Part shown: positions 56,768-64,000 of the stretch, in pieces
How the letters are laid out: every line of letters starts with the position of its first letter
Numbering within the stretch: the first letter of the stretch is position 1
Origin: Nitrosomonadales bacterium
GTDB taxonomy: Bacteria; Pseudomonadota; Gammaproteobacteria; Burkholderiales; Gallionellaceae
DNA length: 64,000 bases
NCBI GenBank assembly: GCA_023259055.1
Contig: JAHFQZ010000004.1
Coordinates: 1 to 64,000 of the forward strand
Direction: 5' to 3'
Position numbers and translations under genes: made by a program
Notes under the pieces: model-generated
What the model saw: the letters and a program-made list of their open reading frames with translations, nothing else
Databases searched by the model: none
Told to the model about the DNA's origin: nothing

Positions 56768-57364
56768 ATGAGCATGTGGGACGAACGCTTTGCGCAAGAA
56801 GGATATTTGTTCGGCACCGAACCGAATGAGTTTCTGGTGACGCAGCAGCATTTGCTCAAACCCGGGATGAGCTGCCTCGCGGTGGCGGACGGCGAAGGGC
56901 GCAACGGCGTGTGGCTGGCGCAACAGGGCTTGCAGGTGCTGTCGGTGGAGGCCTCGGCGGTGGCGTTGGCAAAAGCGCAGAAGCTGGCGCAGCAGCGCGG
57001 TGTGACGGTAACGTTTGAGCAGGCTGATCTGGCGGAGTGGCAATGGGGCGAGAGCCGCTTTGATGTGGTGGCGGCGATCTTCATCCAGTTTGCGCCCCCC
57101 GCGTTGCGCGAGCAGATGTTTGCAGGCATCAAGCGCAGCCTGAAGCCCGGCGGGCTGTTATTGCTGCAAGGCTACACGCCGCGCCAGCTCGAATACAAAA
57201 CCGGTGGCCCGCCCCATGCGGAGAATATGTACACGGAAACGCTGTTGCGCAACGCATTTGGCGACATGGAAATATTGCATCTGCGCGAGCATGACGATCA
57301 CATCAGCGAAGGTACGGGGCACAGCGGTATGTCGGCGTTGATTGACATGGTGGCGAGAAAGTAA
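56768..57364 (+). CDS. SAM-dependent methyltransferase (class I, TehB-like)
   Basis: A 198-residue protein. Motif I is LAVADGEGRNGVWLAQQG (SAM binding), motif II LSVEASAVAL, motif III in FDVVAAIFIQF, then LKPGGLLLLQGY. The N-terminus MWDERFAQEGYLFGTEPNEFL is typical of small TehB/thiopurine-type methyltransferases. The substrate is unknown. It starts 24 bases after batD on the same strand and may be transcribed with it, but there is no functional link I can support. Confidence 0.82.
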   Translation: MSMWDERFAQEGYLFGTEPNEFLVTQQHLLKPGMSCLAVADGEGRNGVWLAQQGLQVLSVEASAVALAKAQKLAQQRGVTVTFEQADLAEWQWGESRFDVVAAIFIQFAPPALREQMFAGIKRSLKPGGLLLLQGYTPRQLEYKTGGPPHAENMYTETLLRNAFGDMEILHLREHDDHISEGTGHSGMSALIDMVARK

Positions 57365-57396
57365 ACGGCCTCGGCTGCGCTTCGCCATCAACAACG

Positions 57397-57471
57397 GTCA
57401 GGCAAACACTGACAGCAAAATCTCCAGGTGCCCTACACCAAAATCAGGCAAACACCTATATAACCTCAATG
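57397..57471 (+). promoter_or_regulatory. 75-bp block shared with 27270-27344, copy B
   Basis: Matches copy A without gaps at roughly 80 per cent. It contains TCAGGCAAACAC at 57398 and TCAGGCAAACACC at 57444, starts 46 bases apart as in copy A, and TATATAA right after the second repeat (TATACAA in copy A). It ends about 70 bases before the lipoprotein ATG at 57543. A shared regulator or promoter type is inferred. Confidence 0.6.
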
Positions 57472-57542
57472 CTCGAGAGCGCATTATTAGTGCACGTATT
57501 TCGGACTCAATCAGCATTTCTCAGATTAAAGAGGCGACCAAA

Positions 57543-58691
57543 ATGAAAAGCAAAAGTCTTATGTTTGGCGCGATGTGTTTGGGCGCGATGACCTTGTATG
57601 CTTGTAATGGGGGAAGCTACACTCCCACGAGTTCCTATAACTACAATACGCTTCTGAACGGTAACTATCAGGTTCATCAGGTTGGCGATGCAGGAGCTGG
57701 CGCAGTGACGGAAACCGTACGTGTGGACTTGACCGCTGACGGAACCGGCGCAGGTACTATGAACATCGCTGCCGGCAACCATTCGGCAGGAGCTACGGGC
57801 AGCGGAACATACAGCTATACCGTGGCAGCGGACAGGACGTTCAGTGTAACCACTACTACCGGGACTGTTCACGGGATTATATCGGTTACCGGGAATCCCT
57901 TCGTCCTTACAGATACAAATCGCACAGTCAGTGCTGTACCGCCAGAAGATGCCGGGGTCGTGATGGCCGTCGGCATGAAAAAGACGAGCGGCCTGACCAA
58001 TGCAATTTTGAACGGCAACTACCAGATTCATCAGGCCGGTGATGCACTTCTGGGTGCAGGGTTGTATACCACCCGCGTGGATGTTACCGCTAATGGTGCT
58101 GGTGCAGGCACGTGGACTATCGTGGGCCACTCAGCGGGTAGTACGGGCACTGGAGCGTACACCTATAGCGTCAACGCAATTGACGGGACGTTCAGTATGA
58201 CCACCGCTGCCGGAACCGATTACGGAATTGTGTCGGCTGACGGGAGCATGTTCGCCCTGACGGACACAAATCCTCCCGCAGACACTGATGCCGAGATCGT
58301 CATGGCCGTTGGCGTGAAAAAGTCCAGCGGCCTGACCAATGCCGTTTTGAGAGGCGGTTATCAGATTCATCAGGTCGGTAAAGGAGCTGCGGGCAGGTAC
58401 ACCAGCAGGGTGAATATTACTGCTGACGGGGCTGGTTCGGGCACGTGGAGTATCGCCAGTCATTCGGCAGGAGACACCGGCAGCGGATTGTTCACCTATT
58501 CAGTCGCGCCAGACGGGACGTTCAGTGTAACCACCAAAGACGCTACCGGTACTATCACGATAGGAACCGATTACGGGATCGTATCGGCTGACGGGAGCAT
58601 GTTCGCCATAACGGATACAAATCCCACAGCCAGTGCCGTGCCGCCCATAGAGGATGCCGAGATCATCTTGGCCGTCGGCGTGAAAAAATAG
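57543..58691 (+). CDS. Lipoprotein made of three internal repeats, unknown function
   Basis: A 382-residue protein. ATG 57543 has AGAGG at 8-9 bases upstream. Signal MFGAMCLGAMTLYAC ends in a lipobox Cys (about 20). Then three repeats of about 110-120 residues start near residues 36, 153 and 268. Each opens LLNGNYQVHQVGDA / ILNGNYQIHQAGDA / VLRGGYQIHQVGKG, has a middle ADGTGAGTMNI-like strand and SAGxTGSGxYxYxV, and ends in (G/D)ITxxG..F.LTDTN and an MAVGxKK-type boundary. The repeats look all-beta. They are similar at DNA level too, pointing to internal duplication. I know no family. Confidence 0.7.
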   Translation: MKSKSLMFGAMCLGAMTLYACNGGSYTPTSSYNYNTLLNGNYQVHQVGDAGAGAVTETVRVDLTADGTGAGTMNIAAGNHSAGATGSGTYSYTVAADRTFSVTTTTGTVHGIISVTGNPFVLTDTNRTVSAVPPEDAGVVMAVGMKKTSGLTNAILNGNYQIHQAGDALLGAGLYTTRVDVTANGAGAGTWTIVGHSAGSTGTGAYTYSVNAIDGTFSMTTAAGTDYGIVSADGSMFALTDTNPPADTDAEIVMAVGVKKSSGLTNAVLRGGYQIHQVGKGAAGRYTSRVNITADGAGSGTWSIASHSAGDTGSGLFTYSVAPDGTFSVTTKDATGTITIGTDYGIVSADGSMFAITDTNPTASAVPPIEDAEIILAVGVKK

Positions 58692-60249: not shown

Positions 60250-60407
60250 GCTTGGTCGTGGACTGTTCGCTATAAACGCTGCGCATCATACCATCGCGCT
60301 CCGCGCCGCCTAGTATCCCAACTCACAACTGCGTTTTTTGGAAAAGAAATTCGTCCGCGAAGTGGGGTAAGCAGGCATTTCGCCACAAGGCGAAAGCTCG
60401 CAAAAAC

Positions 60408-60461
60408 ACGAAAGGCACGAAATAGAACAAGAAGTTTTTTCGTGTTTTTCGTGCCTTTCGT
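60408..60461. repeat. Inverted repeat downstream of the protease operon
   Basis: ACGAAAGGCACGAAA (60408-60422) and TTTCGTGCCTTTCGT (60447-60461) are exact reverse complements around a 24-base AT-rich loop with T-runs. The CACGAAAGGCACGAA repeat is common in proteobacterial genomes. It lies after the CPBP protease stop and could end its transcript. The rest of the 60250-60478 gap, upstream of murJ, shows no gene. Confidence 0.75.
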
Positions 60462-60478
60462 GGACAACTGCTTTTTAG

Positions 60479-60889
60479 TTACGCAGCGAAAAACAGGAGC
60501 CCGAGGTTGTAATAGCAATGGAGCAAGACCGGAACCAGAATGCCGCGATATCGTTCGCGAAAATAACCCAGCACCAGTGAAACGGCGAAATAACCGGGAG
60601 CGAGTGTCAAGGGGTGTTGCCATAGATGTGCGGAGGCAAAGGCGACGCTGGTTAACCAGTTTGCATTGCTGAAGCCTGCCGTCCTGTGTTTGAACCGATC
60701 CCTGGACAGCAATCCACCTTGAAGGAAACCCCGAAACAGCACTTCCTCCGCGATGGAGATCAACGTGAGCAGGATAATCGCGCTGGCCGTTCCTCCCTTG
60801 AGATAGGCGCTATCCCAGGGGGGAAGCCACGGCCAGATCAGCAGCGGCGCGACAACCGCAGTAATTAGCCGGTAATCAGGCCGCGCCAC
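60479..60889 (-). CDS. Minimal CPBP-family intramembrane protease, candidate JDVT-CTERM sorting protease (MrtJ-like)
   Basis: A 136-residue membrane protein with about four helices. GTG 60889 is the only likely start because an in-frame TAA lies 4 codons upstream; this gives a 14-base overlap with the subtilase gene. All three CPBP (Abi/Rce1-type) motifs are present: AEEVLFRGF (Glu48, Glu49, Arg53), FASAH (His88) and HCYYN (His124, Asn128). CPBP proteins are glutamic-type proteases; members next to CTERM proteins process or anchor their tails. Most CPBP proteins exceed 200 residues, so this is near the minimal core. The partner is inferred to be the subtilase tail encoded directly upstream. 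Confidence 0.78.
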   Translation of the reverse strand: MARPDYRLITAVVAPLLIWPWLPPWDSAYLKGGTASAIILLTLISIAEEVLFRGFLQGGLLSRDRFKHRTAGFSNANWLTSVAFASAHLWQHPLTLAPGYFAVSLVLGYFRERYRGILVPVLLHCYYNLGLLFFAA

Positions 60890-63317
60890 GGGTGCGGATT
60901 ACGCGCCGGCGCAACCAGTAAACCAGCACGACGAGCAAAGCCAATGGCAAGGAAGGATCAGGATTCGCGCCGGCTGGCATAACCGAACATCCGCCGCCGC
61001 CCCCTCCGGAAGGCGCTGCATTGGCGGTGCCGGAGATGGTTGCCTGGGTCGGTGAGGCGCCGCCTGCCAGGCTGGCTGTGACGGTTCCGGAATACGCACC
61101 GACTGCATGGGGTGTAATGGTGACCGTAACAAGGCATGTCGCGCCTGCGGCGAGTACGGCGTTGCTGCATGTGTCAAAGGACAGCGCCATGATTGTTGGC
61201 TGGGACAGTGTCACACTTCCCAATGTTACTTGGATCGCATTGGGGTTGGTGAACGACAGGTCGACGGTCGTTGACTGGCCGACAATAACCGTCGTTGCCG
61301 TCACAGCCGGCGTGGCGGTTGTCAGGGCTGCCGGTCCGCGTATTCCGCTGAGCCCTATGCCGATGGCTCCTGGGGCGGTTGTCGGGACTGACAGCGTTGC
61401 CGAGTGGCTGCCGGCCGAGGCCGGCGTGTAGTTCATCGTGATCTGGCAAGTGCCTGCGGGTCCAAGTAGAAGCGCTGTGGTGCAGGTATTAGTTGCCATC
61501 GTAAAGAGCGCCGCATTGGGGCCGGTGATCGTGGCTGTGCCGAGTGTTAAGCCTGCCGCATTGTTGTTGGTCAGGGTGACTGTTCTGCTGACCGTGCCAT
61601 TGGTTGTTAGCGTGCCAAAATCAACGTTCGTCAAAGAGGCGGTTAAGGGCGTGGTGCTGTTTTGCACGGCCAGATTGGCGTTGAGTATCCCTGCGCCGCA
61701 ATTCTTACTGGTGGCGCAATCCCAGGCGGGAAAGACAGAAAAGGACGGGAAAGCGGTCAGCGAATCCGGTGAGCTCAGGATGGTTTTGACCTGGGCCGGG
61801 GTAAGGGCGGGGGTGTTGGGCACGGACAGCATCAGCGCGACCGCTGCCGATACGTGCGGCGTCGCCATGCTGGTGCCCTGATAGTAATGGTAAGTCGACC
61901 CGGTCGGGGTGGTGTCGGGAGTGGTTAGTGAAAGATTGAACGTGGAAAGGATGCCGGGATCGAAAGCGACCGGGTAGGAGATTTGATCGCCTCCCGGAGC
62001 AGCCAGGGTTACATAGGCCGGGCTGGTGGTGTTGTACGCCGGCGAGCTGAAGTTGCTGTATGTGGCACGGCTGCCATCCCTTGCTATCGCCGCGACGGAA
62101 ATCACATTCCTGCAGTTTGCCGGGCTGGCATTGGCCACGTCCTGGTTCTCGTTTCCGGCGGCCACCACTACCACTGCGCCTGCGTTCACTACCGCGTCGA
62201 TCGTTGTCTGCTCGGCAACGCTGCATGGCCCGATTCCGCCCAGGCTCAGGTTGATGACCTTGGCCGGGTTGGGGTTCGGAATGGTATGCACGCCGGCTGC
62301 CCATGTAACCCCGTCTGTAATATCGGACAAATATCCGCCGCCCTTGCCCAGGACGCGGACCGGCAATATCTTCGCGCCGTACGCTCCGCCGATTACCCCA
62401 ATGGGAGTAGGAACATTATTGCCGATCGCTGCGATCGTGCCGGCGACATGGGTGCCGTGCCAGGAACTATCCGACACGGGCAGCCCAGAAAAGAACGTGG
62501 TCGCGACATCGGCTGCGGTGAGGTAGTCGCCAGTATCGGTCGCGTCGGCGGAAGGTGGAACTAGAGGACTGGTAGGACTAGATGCAGCACAACCACCGGT
62601 TGCCGTGATACCGCGAATCCTGCAGTCGGAAATAAAAGTGTATCCCGGTGAAACCAGATTGCCAGTGGCCGGGGAAACCGTGCCGCCGACGCCGACAATA
62701 TCCTCATGCGGGGTGATCCCGGTATCGACTACCGCGACGACTACGCCAGTGCCGGTACGGGTGACCCAAGCCGTCTCGAAATCGGCGCCATAGCTGCCAG
62801 TGCCACCGGGTGCAGGCGAAGCAACCGCGCTCACCGGCTGCATGCCCCACAGCCCGGGGGTGCCGGTAGGGGTATAGGTGGTGTAGTAGGGGTCGCTTAT
62901 GACTTGGGCAGTCATGATTCTGTCTTCTTCGACATACTCGACATTAGCCAGTCTGCCGATCCCTGCGATCGCCCGGTCCATGGCCTGTCTATTTGGCGTG
63001 CCCGGTATCGAGAGCACGTGCGCCCCGTTGGAAAGCGCACGAATTTCGGCCAGGTTTGCTCCTGCCGCAGCTTGCATCTGGCTGATGGTCTGGGCAGCAA
63101 ACGGTCTGTTCATTTCAGCATTGATTTGCGCGACACTCAGGCCTTTGGACAGGAAATTCGGCCTGAGTTTGACGATCAGCCGGTCGCTGACCCGTGGGAC
63201 GTTGTTTGGAGGTACATAATTTGCCTTGCCGGTTCCAGCTGCCAGTGCGGGCAGGCAATTAACCGCCCCGAATACGGAGAGTGTGAGCAATAACGCGTTT
63301 CTGGTATTTTGTTTCAT
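60876..63317 (-). CDS. Secreted S8 subtilisin-like protease with C-terminal CTERM-type sorting tail
   Basis: An 813-residue protein. ATG 63317 has GAGGA about 8 bases upstream. Signal peptide 1-26; I9-type propeptide about 44-136 (ends VEYVEEDRIM). Catalytic triad Asp198 (VVAVVDTGI), His287 (WHGTHVAGT) and Ser483 (GTSMATPHV), with oxyanion Asn389 (AAGNEN). Two beta-sandwich modules follow (about 555-660 and 660-765, ASH/choice-of-anchor-like). The end is Gly771-776, Cys777, SVMP, hydrophobic 789-802 and RRR 803-805. This Gly-run/Cys/helix/Arg tail resembles the JDVT-CTERM signal. After export it should be held by the tail, cut by the adjacent CPBP protease and perhaps modified at Cys777. Substrates are unknown. 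Confidence 0.85.
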   Translation of the reverse strand: MKQNTRNALLLTLSVFGAVNCLPALAAGTGKANYVPPNNVPRVSDRLIVKLRPNFLSKGLSVAQINAEMNRPFAAQTISQMQAAAGANLAEIRALSNGAHVLSIPGTPNRQAMDRAIAGIGRLANVEYVEEDRIMTAQVISDPYYTTYTPTGTPGLWGMQPVSAVASPAPGGTGSYGADFETAWVTRTGTGVVVAVVDTGITPHEDIVGVGGTVSPATGNLVSPGYTFISDCRIRGITATGGCAASSPTSPLVPPSADATDTGDYLTAADVATTFFSGLPVSDSSWHGTHVAGTIAAIGNNVPTPIGVIGGAYGAKILPVRVLGKGGGYLSDITDGVTWAAGVHTIPNPNPAKVINLSLGGIGPCSVAEQTTIDAVVNAGAVVVVAAGNENQDVANASPANCRNVISVAAIARDGSRATYSNFSSPAYNTTSPAYVTLAAPGGDQISYPVAFDPGILSTFNLSLTTPDTTPTGSTYHYYQGTSMATPHVSAAVALMLSVPNTPALTPAQVKTILSSPDSLTAFPSFSVFPAWDCATSKNCGAGILNANLAVQNSTTPLTASLTNVDFGTLTTNGTVSRTVTLTNNNAAGLTLGTATITGPNAALFTMATNTCTTALLLGPAGTCQITMNYTPASAGSHSATLSVPTTAPGAIGIGLSGIRGPAALTTATPAVTATTVIVGQSTTVDLSFTNPNAIQVTLGSVTLSQPTIMALSFDTCSNAVLAAGATCLVTVTITPHAVGAYSGTVTASLAGGASPTQATISGTANAAPSGGGGGGCSVMPAGANPDPSLPLALLVVLVYWLRRRVIRTRGAA

Positions 63318-63368
63318 GAAGCTTCCTCTTCTGGAATGGAGCAAATAGTGAATTGTTTGCGGCGAACG

Positions 63369-63725
63369 TTAATGCTGATGCCGCATCAGTTTGTCCTGTT
63401 CGACGGCCTGGATTCCCAGTGATGTGCCGTTCGCCCGCAATGCTTTTTCAAATGATGTGAAGGAATGATTCTCCGGCAGGCTTATTTGGTAGATCAGGGC
63501 GTTATTGCCGAATTGCCGGAAAAAGACCGGGTGGCAACGGCAGGCTTCGGAAATGACGGATAGCAGTTGTTGGCTGTCCGCTGCCGGTGAGTGGGAAAAG
63601 TGAATGATCGCGCGGACAGACGGCTGTGTTGTGCCGGCATGCCCTTCGGAGGGCAGAGCATCTTTTGTCGCATGAGCACAGCCGATCAGCAGACACCCTA
63701 TCAATGAAAACGCCAGCTTATTCAC
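63369..63725 (-). CDS. Small lipoprotein resembling a stand-alone subtilisin propeptide (I9-like)
   Basis: A 118-residue protein. Signal NKLAFSLIGCLLIGC has a lipobox with Cys16. After a 20-residue linker, residues 36-114 (SVRAIIHFSHSPAADSQQLL to VEQDKLM) have the length and pattern of the I9/propeptide ferredoxin-like fold. The end VEQDKLM aligns with VEEDRIM, the end of the propeptide inside the downstream S8 protease. Stand-alone I9 domains can act as folding helpers or inhibitors of subtilases. It lies 51 bases upstream of the protease gene on the same strand. The fold is inferred from pattern, not proven; it has two extra cysteines (CRC). Confidence 0.6.
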   Translation of the reverse strand: MNKLAFSLIGCLLIGCAHATKDALPSEGHAGTTQPSVRAIIHFSHSPAADSQQLLSVISEACRCHPVFFRQFGNNALIYQISLPENHSFTSFEKALRANGTSLGIQAVEQDKLMRHQH

Positions 63726-63994: not shown

Positions 63995-64000
63995 ATGGCA
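63995..64000 (+). CDS. rpsT: Probable start of 30S ribosomal protein S20 (first two codons)
   Basis: ATGGCA at the right edge, preceded by AAGGAG at 8 bases and by a good promoter. S20 begins Met-Ala, and rpsT is the usual divergent neighbour of murJ in betaproteobacteria. Only six bases are visible, so the identity rests on context. Confidence 0.5.

Follow-up and report, generated by a model that had tools for sequence, protein, structure and literature searches.

Surface sorting by a short C-terminal signal raises the question of how a cell survives with a protease waiting in its own envelope. This question is posed by a three-gene cassette in the window, the 64,000-nucleotide stretch of DNA analyzed here (positions 1-64000 of contig 2, JAHFQZ010000004.1, of a 2.6-Mb, 99.99% complete genome of a Gallionellaceae bacterium). 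The genes are co-directional on the minus strand and are transcribed in the order lipoprotein, subtilase, CPBP protease. They encode LIP, a 118-amino-acid putative outer membrane lipoprotein (63369..63725; open reading frame [ORF], profile comparison and orthologue alignments); an 813-amino-acid S8 subtilase precursor (60876..63317; ORF, NCBIfam and Pfam matches); and MrtJ, a 136-amino-acid CPBP-family glutamic intramembrane protease (60479..60889; NF033192). LIP and the subtilase gene are separated by 51 bases, and the GTG start codon of mrtJ at 60889 creates a 14-base overlap with the subtilase stop (60876-60889). This arrangement had been described in an initial annotation made from the sequence alone, and the gene coordinates and the overlap were confirmed in the ORFs. 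Our analysis suggests that the cassette probably sorts a single cargo, a secreted subtilase, to the cell surface and includes an outer membrane-tethered trans-propeptide that restrains the enzyme in the periplasm.

LIP is composed of a lipobox (LLIG-C16), a linker, and a predicted free subtilase-propeptide (I9-type) domain ending in ...VEQD-KLMRHQH (residues 36-118; 63372..63620, minus strand), which was delimited by homologue alignment, predicted fold and alignment with the BPN' prosegment. The Pfam Inhibitor_I9 model matched neither LIP nor eight of its homologues, nor the propeptides of three subtilases that were scanned. This model was therefore dropped as proof of identity, and profile-profile and fold evidence were used instead. 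A profile of LIP homologues recovered the propeptide of the window subtilase itself, hereafter the cis propeptide (E 5.6e-5), as well as subtilase propeptides in many other genomes. Comparison of LIP with cis propeptides by hhalign gave a probability of 97.1% (E 6e-11), with VEQDKLMRHQH aligned to VEEDRIMTAQ, and alignment with the BPN' prosegment was weak (E 0.38). An AlphaFold2 model of LIP displayed propeptide topology, with a core pLDDT (predicted local distance difference test score) of 91-96. Glu109 and Asp111 of LIP were invariant in 11 homologues in an alignment (A4) that includes the G513 match as a row, so that its profile is slightly contaminated. Glu69 and Asp71 of the BPN' propeptide have been described as a helix-capping pair in a study of a malarial stand-alone propeptide (PMC6993865). 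Collectively, these comparisons indicate that LIP is a homologue of the cis propeptide encoded as a separate protein. Of the earlier description of an I9-like lipoprotein, the lipobox and the propeptide homology were upheld, but a match to the Pfam I9 model was not obtained.

LIP homologues from Gallionellaceae share a Cys-x-Cys motif (C62 and C64 in the window protein) at the end of helix 1 (LIP residues 56-68; 63522-63560), which was absent from the homologues read in other families. LIP-like matches in genomes G513 and G844 were weak, with no subtilase found beside them, and were excluded from the counts; a match in G360 (E 0.004) was dropped because no subtilase was nearby.

The C-terminus of LIP was compared with the site at which the cis propeptide would be cleaved. 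The cis propeptide (approximately residues 27-138; 62904..63239, minus strand; profile search and hhalign) ends in ...VEYVEEDRIMTAQ and is followed by VISDPYY. Counting from the Asp of the Glu-x-Asp pair, the BPN' prosegment chain ends at Asp+6 (a 78-residue chain aligned to residue 77), and the solved mature relatives 5yl7 and 7w2a start at Asp+7 by alignment. On this basis, cleavage would be expected after Asp+6 (P1). The LIP of the window ends at Asp+7. Among 17 subtilase-linked LIPs with a readable Glu-x-Asp, a count that leaves out G312 (which ends near Asp+1) and G748 (motif not conserved), the C-terminus was found at Asp+6 in seven, Asp+5 in five, Asp+7 in one, and further downstream in four. 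In three of the four longer LIPs, the residue at Asp+7 (P1') is Pro. Pro at such a position normally prevents cleavage and should block cutting in these three proteins. Thus, the alignments place the end of LIP at the expected cleavage site of the cis propeptide, with 13 of 17 proteins ending at Asp+5 to Asp+7.

LIP and the neighboring cis propeptide had the P1 residue itself in common in 9 of the 13 pairs that could be compared (Q/Q in four Gallionellaceae, then L/L, M/M, M/M, M/M and L/L). With one representative per lineage, agreement was seen in 5 of 8 (permutation p 0.005, in a test chosen after the data had been seen). Because the agreement was noticed before being tested, it is treated as suggestive only, and the stronger rule that P1 always matches the cis enzyme was rejected on both counts.

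The cargo of the cassette is a subtilase with a signal peptide, its own propeptide, a catalytic domain (residues 189-514; 61776..62753, minus strand; PF00082, E 5.8e-52) bearing the S8 motifs DTG, HGTHVAG and GTSMATPH, choice-of-anchor D domains, and a JDVT-CTERM sorting tail (residues 772-813; 60879..61004, minus strand). The tail (residues 771-813, GGGGGGCSVMPAGANPDPSLPLALLVVLVYWLRRRVIRTRGAA) is tripartite, with a Gly-Cys signature containing an invariant Cys, a transmembrane helix and an Arg cluster. The sequence, the S8 match and the profile alignment all agree with the earlier description of this protein as a subtilase with its own propeptide and a Gly-Cys/helix/Arg tail. The JDVT-CTERM model NF033191 scored 28.5 bits on the tail, above its cut-off of 27 (34.8 bits in a whole-genome search), and the MYXO-CTERM model remained below its cut-off on the same tail (17.4 vs 20). 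The CPBP protein scored 81.9 bits against the MrtJ equivalog model NF033192 (cut-off 75) and conserves the MrtJ motif residues E48, E49, R53, H88, H124 and N128 (EExxxR, H, HxxxN). The CPBP protein and the subtilase tail are therefore members of the MrtJ and JDVT-CTERM families. Genome-wide, a single JDVT-CTERM tail over the cut-off and a single MrtJ were detected, supporting the earlier proposal of a one-substrate system. The pairing of JDVT-CTERM proteins with CPBP proteases, which the initial annotation had taken as known, is published: a paper on myxosortases, citing earlier in silico work, describes MrtJ with a single JDVT-CTERM neighbor as occurring sporadically in beta- and gammaproteobacteria, and the related MrtX of Myxococcus xanthus cuts a Cys-containing tail, is required for surface display, and anchors TraA (PMC11980579). 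In genome G369 (L073:7865-10678), a MrtJ 63% identical to that of the window adjoins a subtilase lacking a JDVT tail, and no cargo for this MrtJ was seen in the vicinity.

Related cassette loci bear labels that include Sideroxydans and Sideroxyarcus, in keeping with the placement in Gallionellaceae. Orthologues of the subtilase with at least 57% identity were present in 7 of 150 family genomes. All seven had MrtJ directly downstream, as the initial annotation would lead one to expect, and LIP upstream. The same LIP-S8-MrtJ gene order was found outside the family, in G016, from a different family of the same order, and in two genomes from a further family of the class, G706 and G561, and LIP was retained across at least three bacterial families. 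In G026, a LIP-subtilase pair with a JDVT tail lies on one contig and MrtJ on another. LIP was found beside the subtilase at 10 of 12 MrtJ loci with subtilase cargo, compared with none of 16 MrtJ loci with other cargo, several of which run off contig ends (p 5e-6); when only apparently complete other-cargo loci were considered, LIP was found at none of about nine (Fisher p 2e-4). A regular-expression search for JDVT tails gave many spurious wrong-frame tails, and tails were counted by eye as an obvious Gly-Cys, transmembrane and Arg succession at a real gene end. The distance matrices of LIP, subtilase and MrtJ from ten cassettes were correlated (r 0.83-0.92), as expected for genes travelling together. 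Gene order is conserved and, among MrtJ loci, LIP is restricted to those with subtilase cargo.

Some variant loci were also observed. At G388 (L069:1287-4691), MrtJ adjoins a subtilase of 1134 residues that contains tandem-95 repeats and ends in a JDVT-like tail, and there is no LIP gene. At G419 (L296:812-3465) and G838 (L192:6348-8375), LIP-like lipoproteins lie beside subtilases with a Cys-less, glycine-rich transmembrane tail; these tails resemble GlyGly-CTERM by eye but had no NCBIfam match.

The location of LIP was predicted from its anchor. The window protein carries the lipobox LLIGC, and of the stand-alone homologues inspected by eye, all but one have a lipobox-like Cys. The G312 protein has 313 residues, with an OmpA-type barrel (PF01389, E 7e-16) in its N-terminal part and the LIP domain in its C-terminal part, and is encoded upstream of a JDVT subtilase and MrtJ (L068:7905-8846). 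The C-terminus of an OmpA-type barrel faces the periplasm. Since the C-terminus of the G312 barrel should do likewise, it can be argued that the LIP domain acts on the periplasmic side of the outer membrane, at its inner surface. Lipid anchoring and a periplasmic location of LIP are thus predicted.

A mechanism can be proposed in which the subtilase precursor would be exported by Sec, fold on its own N-terminal propeptide, and be held in the inner membrane by the JDVT-CTERM helix. MrtJ would then cut close to the invariant Cys of the tail, probably once this residue has been lipidated, and the released lipid-anchored protease would be placed outside by the type II secretion system; GspD is present in the genome. 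LIP would provide the propeptide fold a second time, as a separate protein anchored in the membrane. Its Glu-x-Asp pair would cap protease helices, and its C-terminal strand would enter the S4-S1 subsites like a cleavage product that cannot be cut. A protease that matured too early in the periplasm would be held inactive by LIP. Lipidation, MrtJ cleavage, the export route and inhibition by LIP are each predicted steps of this model. The suggestion of the initial annotation that the lipoprotein may be a helper or inhibitor of the subtilase is strengthened by the homology to the cis propeptide, the product-like C-terminus, and the restriction to subtilase cargo. Overall, that annotation had the anatomy right and, in the main, the interpretation too.

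Several observations weigh against this model. In a Foldseek search of the PDB, generic ferredoxin-like folds came ahead of the BPN' prosegment, which ranked 37th; the search was not discriminating and was set aside as evidence of identity. P1 identity fails in G706, G561, G838 and G748, the LIP of G301 has no lipobox, and the LIP domain of G312 lacks the C-terminal tail. Two MrtJ loci with subtilase cargo, G388 and G554, have no LIP. Conversely, LIP lies beside subtilases with no MrtJ nearby in G492, G004, G419, G838, G620, G743 and G748, so that LIP is partnered with the subtilase and the sorting enzyme is optional. Finally, several orthologous tails in the family fall under the JDVT cut-off (15.8-24.3 bits) with an identical layout, which places this clade at the edge of the JDVT-CTERM model.

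Other roles for LIP were considered against the proposed restraint of the cassette enzyme. Propeptide homologues are generally known to be able to fold subtilases in trans, and LIP could act mainly as an external folding chaperone that inhibits only incidentally, in the manner of ORF2 of Aeromonas sobria or the lipase-specific foldases. ORF2 is encoded beside its subtilase, ASP, is needed for maturation, and acts as a temporary inhibitor through C-terminal residues placed at the active site (PMC5638518). As there described, however, ASP lacks a propeptide. The window subtilase has one in cis, as do the subtilases of all ten cassettes that were compared, so that folding help is already supplied in cis and the cassette is not a member of the ASP/ORF2 kind. 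The likeness of ORF2 to LIP is one of description; the ORF2 gene lies downstream of its subtilase, and the description consulted mentions no sorting tail or MrtJ. In addition, the Pro after P1 in three LIP homologues favors durable inhibition, and a role mainly in folding is considered rather unlikely.

LIP has diverged (homologues in the family are 31-42% identical to the window protein) and has no Pfam I9 match, as might also be expected if it were a decayed propeptide copy that does little and is carried along by linkage. A relic of this kind is very improbable given the retention of the gene in at least three bacterial families with a conserved Glu-x-Asp, lipobox and C-terminus position, the acquisition of a new anchor, the OmpA barrel, by one homologue, and LIP distances that run parallel to those of the subtilase. 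A stand-alone I9 protein can inhibit a single subtilase or several (PMC6993865), and LIP might accordingly be directed at other subtilases, whether of competitors, of predators or of the same cell, instead of the cassette enzyme. The position of LIP beside the subtilase, its absence from other-cargo loci, the correlated distances and the frequent P1 agreement with the neighboring enzyme all point to the cassette enzyme as the target, making this alternative very unlikely.

The proposed system, in which LIP restrains the subtilase of its own cassette, shares features with known systems. As in the two-gene MrtJ/JDVT-CTERM system, a single JDVT-CTERM protein lies beside MrtJ, with both families over their cut-offs; the cassette differs in having an upstream propeptide-like gene that, among MrtJ loci, accompanies only subtilase cargo. 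The MrtX/MYXO-CTERM system of M. xanthus shares the related CPBP protease and the Cys-containing tripartite tail, but has many substrates per genome where the cassette has one. Among stand-alone I9 mimics, Pbi2 of yeast, POIA1 of Pleurotus, SPI-1 of Arabidopsis, TgMIC5 and Plasmodium SUB1-ProM have a free propeptide fold, Glu/Asp capping and a C-terminal tail that enters the active site, and the SUB1-ProM gene adjoins genes for subtilases with their own propeptides. These mimics are eukaryotic and, as far as described, not lipid anchored, whereas a lipobox or an OmpA barrel is found in the bacterial LIPs, which are paired with surface-sorted enzymes. In M. xanthus, PopD likewise restrains a secreted subtilisin-like protease, PopC; this likeness is by description, and PopD differs in acting on PopC secretion.

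Since the JDVT-CTERM/MrtJ pairing had already been published (PMC11980579), what appears to be new is only the conserved third gene with its product-like C-terminus. No description of the third gene was found in the open-licence literature, and an account elsewhere is possible. We lean, with little more than even confidence, towards a general bacterial device in which outer membrane-tethered stand-alone propeptides would guard subtilases in transit to the surface, with a C-terminus cut at, or Pro-locked just after, the natural cleavage position, with or without myxosortase-type sorting, and with an exchangeable anchor (lipid or OmpA barrel). If LIP is a tethered trans-propeptide, it would answer the question of envelope survival for subtilases. 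The cassette would then combine sorting, activation and restraint in just three genes, so that each could be separated genetically, and its free propeptide would be an inhibitor of natural origin, probably selective for particular enzymes. The single-cargo arrangement also makes MrtJ cleavage directly testable.

The cassette lies between murJ and rpsT, which the initial annotation had called frequent neighbors. Indeed, these genes were divergent neighbors in 13 congeners, with a start-to-start gap of 156-973 bases. Here they are separated by 3746 bases, with the cassette inside, and the window breaks off just after rpsT begins (ATG at 63996). The six other family genomes with the cassette showed no murJ next to it, so the unit has moved. 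A scan for promoter and terminator consensus sequences gave nothing useful. Between mrtJ and murJ, a near-perfect long hairpin (60407..60462, minus strand; folding vs shuffles) is formed by TTTCGTGCCTTTCGTG and its complement; the 121-nucleotide region folds at -47.5 kcal/mol (z -6.8 vs shuffles). The hairpin was not listed by a simple terminator scan, and it possibly marks the end of the cassette transcript. On the far side of murJ, 57342-58691 encodes a putative lipoprotein with about three repeats of about 105 residues, which is weakly similar, over a local stretch, to the C-terminal region of the subtilase.

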